Source: Chloroflexaceae bacterium (GTDB lineage Bacteria; Chloroflexota; Chloroflexia; Chloroflexales; Chloroflexaceae). From it: a stretch of 37,327 bases of DNA. Position numbers and translations under genes: made by a program. Below the pieces are notes generated by a model. It made no database searches, was not told where the DNA came from, and saw only the letters and a program-made list of their open reading frames with translations. Below are positions 2,240-7,928 of the stretch, piece after piece. The DNA is taken from the NCBI GenBank assembly GCA_028282325.1, contig JANQID010000040.1, positions 1 to 37,327 of the forward strand, given 5' to 3'. Each line of letters starts with the position of its first letter. Position 1 is the stretch's first letter.

Positions 2240-3004
2240 CTAACTCAGCTTCTCACGTCGATAGCGCTCGTCGGGGCGAGTGTAGATGCGCTCGACATCG
2301 GCGGCGCTCAGGAAGCGCGGACCGCCGAGCAGATAGGTTCCCAGCAGAATACGCGCGGCTTTGACGCACATCGCGGTGATATTCTCCACCTCCGCTGCGC
2401 TCTTGCCCAGGGCGATCAGGCCGTGGTTTTGCAGCATAATCACACGCGGCGGCTCATTATAGGCGTCGATGTAGTCGAGCATCGCCGTTTTGACTGCGCG
2501 CGCCAGCGGCAGGCCGGGGTCGGCATAGGGCACGAACGCCGGTTCCGGCCCGCAATAGAGGATCTGCTCGGTGAAAATGTTGCTGCTCAACGCCTCGCGC
2601 GCCTGCTGCGAGCACAGGATCGCGTTCAGCGCCGTCGGGTGGGTGTGACCGACGAAGATCGCGCCGCAGATCGTATAGGCCAGGGTGTGAAAACTGGCCT
2701 CGATCGACGGGCGATTCGGATTGGCCGGATCAACCTTCGCCCCGGCCAGATAGCGTGCGATCTCGGCGTCGGAAAGCGTTTTCTGCTCCAGCATCTCCAA
2801 TACCTTGTCGATCGCCACTTCGACAAACTCGTCGGGCCGGATCTGGTGCAACTGCGAGCCGCTGGCTTTGATCCAGAACGAGCCATCGTCGATGCGCGCC
2901 GATGTGTTGCCGTCGCCGAGAATCACATAATCGCGTTCGGGCAAGCCCAGGTTGCGCGACATCGCAACCAGCCGGCCGAGTATCTGTTCTTTGTTGCTGG
3001 TCAT
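2240..3004 (-). CDS. Class II aldolase/adducin family protein
   Basis: A 254-residue protein of the zinc-dependent class II aldolase family (relatives: L-fuculose-phosphate aldolase, L-ribulose-5-phosphate 4-epimerase). Family hallmarks are all present: the phosphate/substrate loop GDGNTSARI (30-38), a glutamate in 'SIEASFH' (about 102) in the position of the catalytic acid, the zinc motif HTHPTALN with H120 and H122, and the third zinc histidine in QNHGL (H194). It should cleave a keto-sugar phosphate into DHAP and an aldehyde; the exact sugar cannot be told. Its ATG shares one base with the TGA of the upstream SDR fusion (TGATG at 3006-3002), so the two are translationally coupled. It supplies the intact aldolase site that the fusion protein appears to lack. 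Confidence 0.85.
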   Translation of the reverse strand: MTSNKEQILGRLVAMSRNLGLPERDYVILGDGNTSARIDDGSFWIKASGSQLHQIRPDEFVEVAIDKVLEMLEQKTLSDAEIARYLAGAKVDPANPNRPSIEASFHTLAYTICGAIFVGHTHPTALNAILCSQQAREALSSNIFTEQILYCGPEPAFVPYADPGLPLARAVKTAMLDYIDAYNEPPRVIMLQNHGLIALGKSAAEVENITAMCVKAARILLGTYLLGGPRFLSAADVERIYTRPDERYRREKLS

Positions 3005-4914
3005 CAGATAATCCTATCGCTTCCGCCGTCTACGGCGATCTGCGCTCCGGTAATCTTGCCAAACAGCGGGCCGAGCATTTCGGCGACCAGTTCGGCCACA
3101 TAACGGCTGTTCAACTCCACCCCCAGCACGTTGCGCGTTTTGTACTGCTGAACGGTCATACCATAGTGCGCCGCGCGCGCCTGCAGCACATCCTCGGTCC
3201 AAATGCCGGTGTCGAACACCGCATCGGGATGCACCATATTGACGCGGATGCGATTCTTTCCCCATTCCAGCGCCGCTACGCGCGCCAGTTGGGTCACAGC
3301 GGCTTTCGCGGCTGAATAGGCCGCCGCCCCGGCGCCGGGAGCAAGCACATTCTTCGAGGCGTTGAGCACCACGCGCCCGTCGCCCGGCGCATGCTTGAGC
3401 AACGGATATGCCTCGCGCAAGATGACGACGTTGTGATCGAGGTTGATCCGCATCACTTTTTGCCACAAGGCCGTCTCGAGCGCCTCAACCCGCACGCCTT
3501 GCGGGAAGATGCCCGCGTTGAGCACGATCATATCCAGGCCGCCAAAGGTGTGCGCGGTCGTCTCGAAGGCGGCAAGCACCGCCGCCTCGTCGGTCAAATC
3601 GCAATGAATGCCGAGGTAGCCGGGTTGGTCGAACAGCGTCTCGACCGCCGGGTTGATGTCGAGCGAGACCACCGACGCCCCGCGTTCAAGCAGTGCGGCG
3701 ACGCAGGCTTTGCCGATTCCCGACGCGCCACCCGTCACCATCGCCACCTCGCCGTCGAACACACGCCGTGGCGCGGCGCACGCAAGCATCGCACGCGCTT
3801 CGGCGTCGGTGTAAGCTTTGTCGGGCAGCGGTTCGTAGCCGCCCAGCGCCAGCGCCCGAATGATGACTTCGACGGAATGGCGATAGCAGGCGGCGATGCG
3901 CGCTGACTCGCTAGCCGTGCGTCCCATCGCGCACACGCCCAGGTCGGGGTCGAGCACGATGCGGGGGGCATGTTTATGGGCGGCGTAGTAGGATTCGATG
4001 TCACGACCAAGCATTGGCACGCACCCGATCAGCGCGGCTTGCGCGATCAGCGGTGGGTGGTCGGCAATCACGGCGACATTGGCATGCCGGACCAATCCCA
4101 GGCTCCAGACGTTGCGGCGGAGGGTCATCGTCATCGGCGCGCCGGCAATATCTGAGACGGATTTGCGCACCTCGGCCAGATCGGCGCGGATCGGCGGATC
4201 GACGGCGTCGCCGATATCAATCGACAGATCCATGTCCAGTACATTGTGTTCGTCCAGATAGGCTTCGGCCCGGCTGACCAGTTCGATCGCCTGCTCGTAC
4301 GCCGCCTGCGCGCTGTCGGCAAATACCGCCAGCCCGTGGCCGCGCAGCAATATGCCTTTGACCTCGCGCGGGTCGCGGTCGCGCAGGGTGCGATTGCAGG
4401 CGCGGGCCAGCGGCAGACCCATAGTAGCATACTCAACGACCGGTAGGGCGTCGCCATAGATAGAACGCAGGCGCTCTTCACCCTGGACGGCACTGACGAT
4501 AGCAAGCAAAGCGACGGGTTGAATGAGTAGGGTATATGCGCCGGGCAATGCTGCGTAGAGCAATATATCGGTCGGCGGAATCGGCGCATCGGCGTTCAGC
4601 CGGCTCACGGCGATCTCATTCATCAGACGTGTGTTACCGATCACATCGAGGTCGAGCAAGCGCTTCACCGCCGGTAAGCGCAGGGCGATCAGATCCTCGG
4701 CGGTAAGCGCGGCGAGATCCTGGTCGCACAACGTCACAGCGATGACCGGCTCGGCTTCACCATAGAGATTCGGCGTGCTCGTTTTCACCGCTGCGCCGCC
4801 GAGACTGGGCGCGACCAGATGCGGACCCTGGCCGAGCAGGCGGGCGGCATAGGCGCAGCGTGCGCGATCAGTGTTAAGTTGCGAGGCTTCGTCCTCGCGC
4901 CACAAGCTTTTCAT
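3004..4914 (-). CDS. Aldolase/short-chain dehydrogenase fusion with a degenerate aldolase half
   Basis: This resembles the bifunctional rhamnulose-1-phosphate aldolase/SDR (YuxG/RhaE-like) family. I start at the ATG at 4914 because family members begin near 'M-x-SLW'; an ATG at 4935 and a TTG at 4944 are in frame. Residue numbers here count from the TTG. The C-terminal SDR half (about 397-646) is complete: TGGASGIG at 404-411 for NAD(P), NAG at 476-478, catalytic S530, and Y543/K547 in YSAAK. The N-terminal aldolase half (about 11-380) keeps 'RGHGLAVF' (H203). However, the usual GGNTS(V/C)K loop reads 'LGGAAVK' (48-54), and no His-x-His zinc pair is seen where 'HTHADA' normally stands; the region reads 'LIQPVALLAI'. 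It is probably catalytically dead as an aldolase. The dehydrogenase likely oxidises a hydroxy-aldehyde or sugar. It is coupled to the intact class II aldolase downstream. Confidence 0.8.
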   Translation of the reverse strand: MKSLWREDEASQLNTDRARCAYAARLLGQGPHLVAPSLGGAAVKTSTPNLYGEAEPVIAVTLCDQDLAALTAEDLIALRLPAVKRLLDLDVIGNTRLMNEIAVSRLNADAPIPPTDILLYAALPGAYTLLIQPVALLAIVSAVQGEERLRSIYGDALPVVEYATMGLPLARACNRTLRDRDPREVKGILLRGHGLAVFADSAQAAYEQAIELVSRAEAYLDEHNVLDMDLSIDIGDAVDPPIRADLAEVRKSVSDIAGAPMTMTLRRNVWSLGLVRHANVAVIADHPPLIAQAALIGCVPMLGRDIESYYAAHKHAPRIVLDPDLGVCAMGRTASESARIAACYRHSVEVIIRALALGGYEPLPDKAYTDAEARAMLACAAPRRVFDGEVAMVTGGASGIGKACVAALLERGASVVSLDINPAVETLFDQPGYLGIHCDLTDEAAVLAAFETTAHTFGGLDMIVLNAGIFPQGVRVEALETALWQKVMRINLDHNVVILREAYPLLKHAPGDGRVVLNASKNVLAPGAGAAAYSAAKAAVTQLARVAALEWGKNRIRVNMVHPDAVFDTGIWTEDVLQARAAHYGMTVQQYKTRNVLGVELNSRYVAELVAEMLGPLFGKITGAQIAVDGGSDRII

Positions 4915-5050
4915 CGGTTTTCGTCTTACTCTCATATCGGGCAAAGCCTGCCGGGTGTGTTCGCGCTGTTTGGCGTCGCATCGGTCAGGTTTGCCAGTCT
5001 ATCGGCTACGTTGAAAAAGGGTCATACATAGGAAGGTCGCAGCGTTCCGA

Positions 5051-5120
5051 GACCTGTCAGGTGCGACGGTCATCAGACCTTCGCCGTCCAGCAGCCGTTT
5101 GACGCCGCACCTGACAGGTC
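5051..5120. repeat. Perfect 15-bp inverted repeat in the gap between two catabolic genes
   Basis: GACCTGTCAGGTGCG (5051-5065) and CGCACCTGACAGGTC (5106-5120) are exact reverse complements with a 40-base loop that can itself pair (CGACGG with CCGTC). It lies in the roughly 300-bp gap between the LsrF-like gene and the SDR fusion gene. The same core, 'gccgcacctgac', recurs at about 35724-35735, so this is probably a dispersed element. It could also end or process the upstream transcript. Confidence 0.55.
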
Positions 5121-5215
5121 TTCGCTGGCCGAGCGCGCGACGGGATGCGCTTCGCCAGTCTCCCCTTTTTCATTCGCTCTGGCGCGCCGCAGGCGCATAA
5201 TGCGCATATCGGCTA

Positions 5216-6022
5216 TCAACTATTCCCTATGGTGAGATACAGATCGTGCGCTTGATCGGGCGTGAGATTCTCGTGAATGACGCCCTGGAGTGCGCGAGCC
5301 ATTGCGACCGGGTGCTCGTTCTGCCAGATATTCCGGCCCAGGTTGACGCCGGCCGCGCCCTGCTGAATACCGTCATACACAAATTGCAACACTTCCAGTT
5401 CGGTCTCCGTCTTGGGGCCGCCGGCGATAACCACCGGCACGGGGCACCCTGCGGCCACCTTCTCGAAATCGTCGCAATAGTAGGTCTTCACCACATGCGC
5501 GCCATGCTCAGCGCAGATGCGGCAAGCCAGCGCCAGGAAGCGCGGCTCAAGCTTTTCTTTCAACTCGCGTCCGACCGCCGTCACCGCCATCACCGGGATG
5601 CCGTAAGGTGCGCAATTGTTGACCAGATTGGCCAGCGCCATCAATGTGCGATGCTGGAAATCAGAACCGATGTAGGTCGACATACCGACAGCGGCGGCGT
5701 TGATGCGGATGATCTCATCGATCGAGACGGTAACATCCTCATCGGCCAGGTCGCCGATGGCCATACTGTTGCCGCCCGACACGCGCAGAATCAACGGCGT
5801 CTCCATAGCCGGATCGAGCGTGGAACGCACGACGCCGCGGGTCATAAACAGGCCGTCGACGTAGGGGAGCAGTGGTTTCGCCGCCTCGCCGGGTCGTGCC
5901 AACCCGTGGGTCGGTCCCTGGAAGTAGCCATGGTCCATCGCCAGATAAAAACAGCGTCCATCCGGCTTGATCAGCTTTGACAGGCGGTTGGCCAGTCCCC
6001 ATTCCATTCCGGTCCAATTCAT
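5216..6022 (-). CDS. lsrF: LsrF-like class I aldolase/thiolase (DeoC/DhnA fold)
   Basis: The start is fixed by GGAGGTG five bases before the ATG at 6022; the longer upstream frame lacks family similarity. The 268-residue product follows E. coli LsrF closely. It has 'MEWGL.NRLS', AMDHGYFQGPT (about 28-38), 'TRGVVRS', 'SGGNS', 'YIGS', VVKTYYCDDFE with a candidate Schiff-base lysine at K179, CPVPVVIAGGPK (K204) and 'GVNLGRNIWQ..HPVAM'. LsrF is the 3-hydroxy-5-phosphonooxypentane-2,4-dione thiolase that degrades phosphorylated AI-2. No lsrK, lsrR or lsr transporter gene is present here, so AI-2 processing is not supported by context, and a related sugar-phosphate cleavage is equally possible. It is the first gene of a same-strand cluster with the SDR fusion and the class II aldolase, about 300 bp upstream of them. 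Confidence 0.8.
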   Translation of the reverse strand: MNWTGMEWGLANRLSKLIKPDGRCFYLAMDHGYFQGPTHGLARPGEAAKPLLPYVDGLFMTRGVVRSTLDPAMETPLILRVSGGNSMAIGDLADEDVTVSIDEIIRINAAAVGMSTYIGSDFQHRTLMALANLVNNCAPYGIPVMAVTAVGRELKEKLEPRFLALACRICAEHGAHVVKTYYCDDFEKVAAGCPVPVVIAGGPKTETELEVLQFVYDGIQQGAAGVNLGRNIWQNEHPVAMARALQGVIHENLTPDQAHDLYLTIGNS

Positions 6023-6374
6023 AGTGTCACCTCCACATAACCTGTAAGCGCAACCTGACCACAGATTGATTTTCATACATACCCGTTCGCGGATATGCCG
6101 GGTGAGCGCAACGATGCATATAGATTCCCCAGGCGGCGGGCTTGCGCCATGATAACAGATTTTCGGCGCGACTCTTCCGACTCGCGGCACAAGTTTCTTA
6201 TGCATAATTGCCTCTGTATCGGCGCAGAGCGCTGAGTATGCGCGTGCGATGGCAATGACGGCGACGTTGTCTCCGGGGACAGAGGACAGATGGGAAATGC
6301 GACGCATACCCGTACGATAAGGGTTTATGAAATGTCAAGATCGCGCCGGAGAGCATCATATCGCCATCTACTGA
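6023..6374. other. Intergenic stretch between divergent genes, no gene seen
   Basis: This separates the minus-strand LsrF-like gene from the promoter of the plus-strand jacalin gene. Minus-strand frames here are weak and lack ribosome-binding sites apart from the GGAGGTG of the LsrF-like gene at its edge. It presumably holds the promoter of that gene, but I could not pick one out with confidence. Confidence 0.4.
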
Positions 6375-6404
6375 TTGACAAGCTATTTCCGAGTGCTGTA
6401 TACT
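6375..6404 (+). promoter_or_regulatory. Near-consensus sigma-70 promoter for the jacalin-HhH gene
   Basis: A perfect TTGACA (6375-6380) is followed after 18 bases by TATACT (6399-6404). The predicted start is near 6411, giving a leader of about 100 nt before the ATG at 6510. It is among the best promoter matches in the window. Confidence 0.65.
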
Positions 6405-6509
6405 GCGCGCGATTTCACGATCACGTAATACTGCGTGAGAAACGGTACAAGATGGCTTATCCGTTTACGATATGACATACGGATGCGCGAGAGTTGAGGA
6501 GGAATGTGT

Positions 6510-7298
6510 ATGGCAGACGTTACCTTTGGCCCATCGGGCGGCCTGGGAGGCCAGGAGTTCAACAACTATACTTTGCCGGAAGGCACCATAATCAAAGAAG
6601 TTCGCGTATTTAGCGAGCGCTTTGTCGATGCGATCCAGCTTGTGTATATGGATGCTGCGGGAAGCTTGATTGAACTGCCCCGGATCGGCGGCCTCGGCGG
6701 TGCGGTTCAAGCGTTCACGCTGGACGACGATGAGCATATCACGGGCATAAGCGGGTTGTATGACTGGTACATCGATAGTGTGCGCTTTCATACGAACAAG
6801 CGCGTTTCTGAGAGCTTCGGCGGTATAGGCGCTGCAAATGAATTCCGCCACGATGTCCCCGAAGGATACGCGGTCGTCGGCCTGATCGGTCGTTATGATT
6901 GGTTCATCGATGCGATCGGCGTCGTTGCGCGTGAGCATACCGTTTCCGCAACTACACCCGCTCCGGTCGAAGCCGCTGCGCCGGTCGAAGCTGCGCCAAT
7001 CAAGGAGAAGCCCGCTGCTTCCAAATCTACAAGCAAATCGAAAACCGGGAACCTGGAGAAGATCGAAGGGATTGGGCCGAAGATCGCCGGCATTTTGATG
7101 GAGAACGGCATCCCCGATCTTGAGGCGCTGGCTCATACATCGGTTGAACGGCTGAAGGAGATTCTCCAGGCGGCTGGCAAGCGCTATGCGCTGGCCAATC
7201 CCGAAACCTGGCCTGAGCAGGCGGCGCTGGGGGCCGCTGGCGATAGGGAAGGTTTGAAGGCGTTGCAAAAGAAGCTTGACAAAGGCCGGAAAAGCTAG
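6510..7298 (+). CDS. Jacalin-like lectin domain fused to a helix-hairpin-helix (COG3743-type) domain
   Basis: I start at the ATG at 6510 because GAGGAGGA (6496-6503) is correctly spaced for it, while it abuts the ATG at 6504. The 262-residue protein has no signal peptide. Residues 1-143 look like one jacalin fold: 'GPSGGLGGQEF' at the start, 'GGLGGAVQAFTLDDDEHITGISG' (given here as the motif around 60-82), 'FHTNKR', 'SFGG' and 'VVGLIGRYDWFIDAIGV', the sugar-site end of the fold. Residues 144-180 are an Ala/Pro/Glu then Lys/Ser linker. Residues 181-262 match the flap-endonuclease-like HhH domain: 'LEKIEGIGPKIAGIL' at 182-196, then 'VERLKEILQAAG' and 'NPETWPEQAAL'. Jacalin domains bind mannose- or galactose-type glycans; this HhH type is presumed to bind nucleic acid or protein. 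The joint function is unknown. It is transcribed alone from a strong promoter. Confidence 0.8.
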   Translation: MADVTFGPSGGLGGQEFNNYTLPEGTIIKEVRVFSERFVDAIQLVYMDAAGSLIELPRIGGLGGAVQAFTLDDDEHITGISGLYDWYIDSVRFHTNKRVSESFGGIGAANEFRHDVPEGYAVVGLIGRYDWFIDAIGVVAREHTVSATTPAPVEAAAPVEAAPIKEKPAASKSTSKSKTGNLEKIEGIGPKIAGILMENGIPDLEALAHTSVERLKEILQAAGKRYALANPETWPEQAALGAAGDREGLKALQKKLDKGRKS

Positions 7299-7325
7299 CA
7301 ATCAAGCATATATTCGGTTGATTCG

Positions 7326-7374
7326 CAAACACCGCGTCAGGTACGTCGCTATGACATACTCGGCGCGGTGTTTG
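7326..7374. terminator. Long-loop inverted repeat between convergent genes, possible terminator
   Basis: CAAACACCGCG (7326-7336) pairs perfectly with CGCGGTGTTTG (7364-7374) across a 27-base loop, just past the stop of the jacalin-HhH gene and before the convergent redoxin stop. The stem carries A-rich and T-rich outer ends on the two strands, so it could act in both directions. The loop is long for a classical terminator. Confidence 0.45.
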
Positions 7375-7460
7375 TTGTTGGGCGAGTGCGGCGGTTATGC
7401 CCGTGATACGGCTTATGCGCTCCAGGAGACGACTTGCCGGGACCAGCTCATTCCTGGCGT

Positions 7461-7928
7461 CTATCCGCCGATGGCGCTTATCAGCTCGGCGGCCTGTGAC
7501 GCATCGTAGCCGCCCTTGCCGCGCCAGAGAATATGTCCCGAGCGATCAACCAGCATTGGTACGATGGTCTCAGTGGTAGGAATTTGCAGCTCAGTCATTG
7601 TGCGCTGCAGGTCGGTGTACACGGTCAGCGTGCGCTCGCGTACGGCTTTGTTGGTGATGATGGCCGCCATTCTGCCATCGATAAACGGACGCGCCAGCGT
7701 GTATATCGAGGACAACATCGGCAATTCATAGGCGCGTACATCGGGACGGCGCTCCATCAGCGGCTCTAACCAGGACATCCACGAGTTGACGAGGCTTTGG
7801 TGCCAGCGTTGGAACGCAAAAATCGCCACAGTGTAATCGCCCGCGAAATCGTCGGGAACGACGATCTCGCTCCCCTCCAGGTTGCGTGCGTGCAAGCGCG
7901 GCAACGTGACGAAAACCGTTTGATTCAT
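7461..7928 (-). CDS. Thioredoxin-fold protein lacking CxxC, resembling ATP10-family redoxins
   Basis: A 155-residue soluble protein. The early beta strand 'YTVAIFAFQRWHQSLVNSW' (about 32-50) stands where a thioredoxin would carry CxxC, but no cysteine is present anywhere. The pattern 'FQRWHQ..VNSW', then 'AYELPML', a basic/hydrophobic stretch, 'VYTD', and 'PMLVDRSGHILWRGKGGYD' resembles the mitochondrial ATP10 assembly-factor family and bacterial proteins of similar type. ATP10 helps assemble the Fo part of ATP synthase; whether this protein does is unknown, though an atp operon lies 10 kb away. It has an AAAGG nine bases before the ATG. It appears monocistronic, converging on the jacalin gene. 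Confidence 0.6.
   Translation of the reverse strand: MNQTVFVTLPRLHARNLEGSEIVVPDDFAGDYTVAIFAFQRWHQSLVNSWMSWLEPLMERRPDVRAYELPMLSSIYTLARPFIDGRMAAIITNKAVRERTLTVYTDLQRTMTELQIPTTETIVPMLVDRSGHILWRGKGGYDASQAAELISAIGG

Follow-up and report, generated by a model that had tools for sequence, protein, structure and literature searches.

A jacalin-family domain joined to a mobile helix-hairpin-helix module in Chloroflexota, a possible two-headed cytosolic adaptor

The window, by which we mean the whole stretch of 37,327 nucleotides analysed here, comes from a Chloroflexota bacterium and carries, at positions 6510–7298 of the plus strand, an open reading frame for a protein of 262 residues (the window protein). 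A ribosome-binding site, GAGGAGG, can be read at 6496–6502 (+), 7 nt before the ATG at 6510; an alternative in-frame ATG at 6504 is too near to it. Further upstream, at 6375–6404 (+), lies a sigma-70-like promoter sequence, TTGACA-18-TATACT, which agrees with the consensus at 11 of 12 positions. The initial annotation called this promoter near-perfect. The pattern is indeed real, but it is a consensus match only, and a scan of this region would by chance alone turn up one promoter-like site that scores 9/12 or better. The gene stands alone. Its upstream neighbour (5216–6307), which encodes a DeoC/LacD aldolase, is divergent and its downstream neighbour (7461–7928) is convergent, so that the transcript is probably monocistronic. 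Between the two convergent genes there is a strong terminator-like hairpin at 7326–7374 with a T-rich stretch directly after it; the stretch 7300–7395 folds at −43 kcal/mol (z −5.1). The opposite strand over the same DNA holds an open reading frame of 278 aa. It is the plus-strand frame, however, that contains both of the Pfam domains described below and is conserved in other genomes.

A 17-nt stretch within the frame (6737–6753) has an inverted copy just past the terminator hairpin, at 7392–7408, which matches at 16 of 17 positions; shuffles of the window lead us to expect zero such copies by chance. The gene also adjoins a cluster of sugar-aldolase genes on the minus strand (2240–6307) consisting of a class II aldolase, an aldolase/short-chain dehydrogenase fusion and the DeoC/LacD aldolase. 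A Deinococcus jacalin gene likewise lies near oxidoreductase and gluconolactonase genes, and other carriers of the gene have no sugar-gene neighbours. No conservation of the neighbourhood is found between the window and the loci in genomes G012, G372 or G144. The G372 and G144 loci have several neighbours in common, with each other only.

The window protein consists of two domains joined by a linker, and both domains score above the curated Pfam cut-offs. Residues 7–138 (6528–6923, +) match the jacalin family PF01419 by sequence profile over nearly its full length (profile positions 2–135 of 136; E 1.6e-24, 87.3 bits against a cut-off of 22). Solved jacalin lectins also match by sequence, the best of them being Ipomoelin (3r50, 2.9e-09). 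An Ala/Pro/Lys-rich linker of low pLDDT follows (residues 144–177; 6939–7040, +). The remainder, residues 178–262 (7041–7295, +), is a helix-hairpin-helix (HhH) module resembling COG3743, with an EGIGPK hairpin and a conserved second half of the form TWPEQA..LQ..L..GR; within it, residues 182–218 match PF14520 (HHH_5; E 1.7e-07, 32 bits against a cut-off of 27). The fusion of a jacalin domain to a COG3743-type HhH domain across such a linker, as originally described, is thus borne out. The Pfam search found no nuclease domain and no phasin domain in the window protein; where a phasin would have its granule-binding head there is a jacalin domain. No signal peptide is evident by eye (the N-terminus reads MADVTFGPSGG), as the first reading had it. 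Its absence suggests a cytosolic location, and nothing contradicts this.

Our survey of 400 evenly drawn Chloroflexota genomes found a jacalin domain in four, joined in each of them to the HhH module. Closer searches, in 41 genomes of the window's family and 56 of the order around G372, brought the number of Chloroflexota genomes with a jacalin domain to 14. In 13 of these, from two distant families, jacalin and HhH share a single open frame. This answers the original suggestion that the pair be sought in other Chloroflexota. It also excludes the possibility that two genes were joined by a sequencing error, because 12 other genomes have the same single-frame pair. A Pfam scan of 12 members matched both domains in every one, with HHH_5 at E ≤ 0.01; the thirteenth, in G450, has some bases left unresolved and was assessed by eye. 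The sole exception, in G459, has a weaker jacalin domain behind N-terminal repeats and no HhH module.

The relatives are 40–57% identical to the window protein. Their linkers are between 22 and 323 residues long, with net charges between +13 and −75. The jacalin and HhH ends are thus conserved as a pair, and the linker between them is free to vary. The linker in G425 has a net charge of +13 and AAKP-like runs. The G372-type members have an acidic insert between the two domains, and their linkers have a net charge of −44 to −75. This insert is about 200–320 residues long (L048:1504-2793, L046, L056, L057, L058 and L059) and resembles two copies of one alpha/beta unit; in G372 it has no Pfam match.

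In a tree of HhH modules, 12 of the 13 jacalin-type modules form one clade (99/98) together with the module of a DUF1350 protein from the window's own genome; the G425 module sits on a very long, unreliable branch. One ancestral jacalin-HhH fusion would be the simplest history. We found no phage or viral relatives of the protein. A phage or plasmid origin was rejected, as plasmids yielded only the Deinococcus jacalin, a Sphingosinicella jacalin without HhH and a Riemerella L21-HhH protein. The pairing of jacalin and HhH was not found in the literature searched, whose coverage is incomplete. Our surveys centred on Chloroflexota, and the pair may occur outside the phylum. What is new is the architecture; both of its parts were already known.

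The jacalin head preserves the features expected of a sugar site. Asp89 and Asp134, which belong to the second and third pseudo-repeats, are invariant across the family alignment. Trp131 and most Gly-rich loops are invariant or nearly so, which leaves the Asp with its adjacent aromatic residue and the GG loops in place. The corresponding position of the first pseudo-repeat varies between Asp, Asn, His and Tyr. In a two-site lectin such as BanLec, the expected pattern is that the Asp of the second and third repeats is kept and that of the first is variable. Sugar binding by the head is nevertheless a prediction, because in the window protein the C-terminal GxxxD motif starts with Asp instead of Gly.

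A structure model had been proposed as a check on both halves of the protein, and it was informative for one of them. The jacalin half was modelled without relatives and for this reason came out poorly, with pLDDT mostly below 70, strands only and no confident fold. The HhH module, in contrast, shows confident helices, with a block-mean pLDDT of 83–97 in the full-length model (last residues excepted) and a mean of 83 when modelled alone. HhH folds head its list of structural matches at Z 8–10: the HhH region of Pol-theta (Z 9.7, rmsd 3.4, 75 aligned residues), the N-terminal domains of RadA/Rad51 (Z about 8) and NusA AR2 (Z 7.8, rmsd 2.3, 61 aligned residues), with the HhH domains of Hel308 and Pol iota also among the nearest folds. 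Small helical domains often reach scores as high as these, and Foldseek gave no significant match (best E-value 0.18).

The module is a promiscuous C-terminal segment found on many unrelated proteins. Among its carriers are the ribosomal proteins L20 (L017), L21 (L029, L038), L30 (L032), S1 (L003) and S6 (L012), the ATP synthase gamma subunit (L040, recognised from its sequence by eye), a ferredoxin of the 2Fe-2S type (L042), a DUF1350 protein (L002) and many proteins with a membrane anchor. A Burkholderiales membrane protein (L019:5401-6675) has two copies in one chain. In Riemerella anatipestifer, plasmid records (L068) hold rplU with the module together with rpmA and murB, genes that are normally chromosomal; a contig may have been wrongly assigned here, or the replicon may carry core genes. 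The NCBIfam models of L21, PhaH and NuoE match the window protein weakly through the module, which aligns with their C-terminal regions and with that of protein-O and may therefore be homologous to COG3743. Protein-O of the Dinoroseobacter shibae RC-LH1 complex ends in such a domain, and its authors call its function obscure (PMC12079452). Nearly all copies of the module contain the EGIGPK hairpin, and the full signature is EGIGPK followed by TWPEQA...LQ...L.GGR. Its net charge averages +0.5 in copies joined to jacalin and −1.6 in copies on other proteins, and most copies are neutral or acidic.

At the search threshold, only two proteins of the window's genome carry the module. The second is the DUF1350 protein (contig C35; L066:6421-8663), in which a very long Pro/Glu linker precedes the module; its gene lies just upstream of an Esterase_PHB-family gene. 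This neighbourhood, and the presence of the module on the phasin PhaH and on some PhaC2 enzymes, hint at a link between the module and PHA granules. PhaC_N matches were discarded as evidence on a PHA link, as they are mostly weak and near universal in the family and hence uninformative.

How might the two ends work together? We tentatively favour, at somewhat less than an even chance, a cytosolic two-headed adaptor with a lectin fold, the HhH module of which docks onto a macromolecular partner. The N-terminal head, a predicted beta-prism, would bind a ligand that carries or resembles a sugar, probably through two sites centred on Asp89 and Asp134, and the flexible linker would allow the C-terminal module to reach its partner. 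The docking surface would most likely be a protein, as it is for NusA AR2, a dual HhH domain with SuhB and alpha-CTD as its protein partners (PMC6614801). The different carriers of the module may then share one kind of partner. A module attached to L20, L21, L30, S1, S6, AtpG, ferredoxin, DUF1350 proteins and membrane anchors would have the look of a docking tag. Judged from its sequence, its charge is unlike that of a simple DNA binder. The mostly neutral or acidic charge of the module and the likeness of its predicted fold to NusA AR2, RadA/Rad51 and Pol-theta make docking to a protein no less likely than binding to DNA. The label "DNA-repair-type", which the initial annotation gave to the HhH domain, finds no support: the module is mobile, occurs on unrelated proteins, has a charge of about zero or below in most copies, and the folds nearest to it include the protein-docking NusA AR2. 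Several points speak against the docking adaptor. A number of the carriers are RNA-binding ribosomal proteins, a general partner is not evident with only two carriers in the window's genome, and the fold matches have the limited significance given above.

The main competitor is a nucleic-acid tether. The HhH module, helped in some members by a basic linker, would bind DNA or RNA, and the jacalin head would keep its cargo, a glycan or a glycosylated molecule, at the nucleoid, as PhaM and PhaF do with PHA granules. We consider this somewhat unlikely but far from negligible. The EGIGPK hairpin is typical of HhH motifs in contact with the phosphates of DNA, which counts for the tether and against the docking adaptor, and the HhH domains of RadA/Rad51, Pol theta, Hel308 and Pol iota among the structural matches favour the tether too. 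So do the basic G425 linker with its AAKP-like runs and the Deinococcus plasmid jacalin WP_239048523.1, in which a Lys/Pro/Ala tail (+8 over 71 residues) takes the place of the HhH module and which has no signal peptide by eye. In Halomonas, PhaC2 enzymes show the same exchange, with a COG3743 domain in some and an H1-like tail in others (PMC8686332), and PhaM tethers granules to DNA and the nucleoid (PMC3556143). However, most orthologues have an acidic or neutral module, linkers of the G372 type are strongly negative, and a DNA-binding test of the module was not found in the literature searched. The original interpretation, a link from a glycan or glycosylated target to nucleic acid or else a pair of protein-binding adaptors, is partly supported: the adaptor version fits at least as well, and the nucleic-acid version keeps the G425 linker and the Deinococcus tail in its favour.

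The remaining explanations are less probable still. The HhH segment could have landed once behind a jacalin gene and been carried along without any joint function. The module is clearly mobile, and the jacalin-type copies group with the DUF1350-type copy of the same genome. Yet a useless tail would often have been lost, and the pair has been kept in 13 of 14 genomes from two distant families despite the divergence of its members and the great variation in linker length; we regard a neutral fusion as rather improbable. A lectin in the cytosol must find its glycan inside the cell, where glycogen is the obvious candidate, and the module matches the phasin PhaH in NCBIfam, so the head might coat alpha-glucan granules as phasins coat PHA granules. 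The distribution of GlgA gives this idea no support. In the window's family, GlgA exceeds its curated cut-off in 0 of 5 carriers and 8 of 36 other genomes, a difference quite possible by chance with 8 of 41 positive, and in the order around G372 it is found in 48 of 56 genomes, whether or not they carry the pair. Since carriers live without GlgA, GlgA-made glycogen is not a required cargo, and a glycogen-granule organiser is quite improbable. Finally, the lectin could read glucosylated phage DNA while the HhH module holds the helix. Nothing recommends such a sensor except that a sugar-binding fold and an HhH stand side by side in one protein. There is no PADLOC match, on which ground a defence role was rejected, nor is there an effector domain, a conserved set of defence neighbours or a phage or viral relative, and we consider it very improbable.

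Jacalin-HhH is a small and probably soluble protein that could serve as a handle on both the lectin ligand in a bacterium and the partner of the HhH module. Cytosolic lectins have scarcely been described in bacteria, and the role of the COG3743-type HhH on ribosomal, respiratory, photosynthetic and storage-granule proteins is unexplained. A bolder version, which we think unlikely, is that the shared HhH tag ties jacalin heads to the transcription or translation machinery or to the nucleoid, where they position or sense an internal glycan or glycosylated molecule. In that case the fusions to HhH in Chloroflexota and to a Lys/Pro/Ala tail in Deinococcus would be convergent and serve one and the same task.

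Each part of the protein has known counterparts. With jacalin-related lectins (Ipomoelin, BanLec and griffithsin-like beta-prisms) it shares the full-length PF01419 profile, the Gly-rich loops and aromatic-x-x-D motifs at the predicted sugar sites; it differs in being bacterial, in its lack of a visible signal peptide, in the fusion to HhH, in the Asp at the first GxxxD position and in the unconserved Asp of the first repeat. The module resembles NusA AR2 and the N-terminal HhH of RadA/Rad51 in predicted fold and in its HHH_5 match, but it adds the conserved TWPEQA...LQ half and moves between proteins as a C-terminal tag instead of belonging to a single enzyme. The plan of the protein recalls the PhaM/PhaF tethers, with a cargo-binding head, a flexible Ala/Pro/Lys linker and a putative nucleic-acid-binding tail, although no homology is detected, the head is a lectin fold, and linker and tail are often acidic. 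A further counterpart is the group of COG3743 "predicted H3TH" modules of protein-O (8yy9), NuoE, PhaH and extended L21, apparently homologous C-terminal modules that likewise sit behind a flexible linker. What sets the window protein apart from these carriers is its N-terminal partner, a lectin fold.
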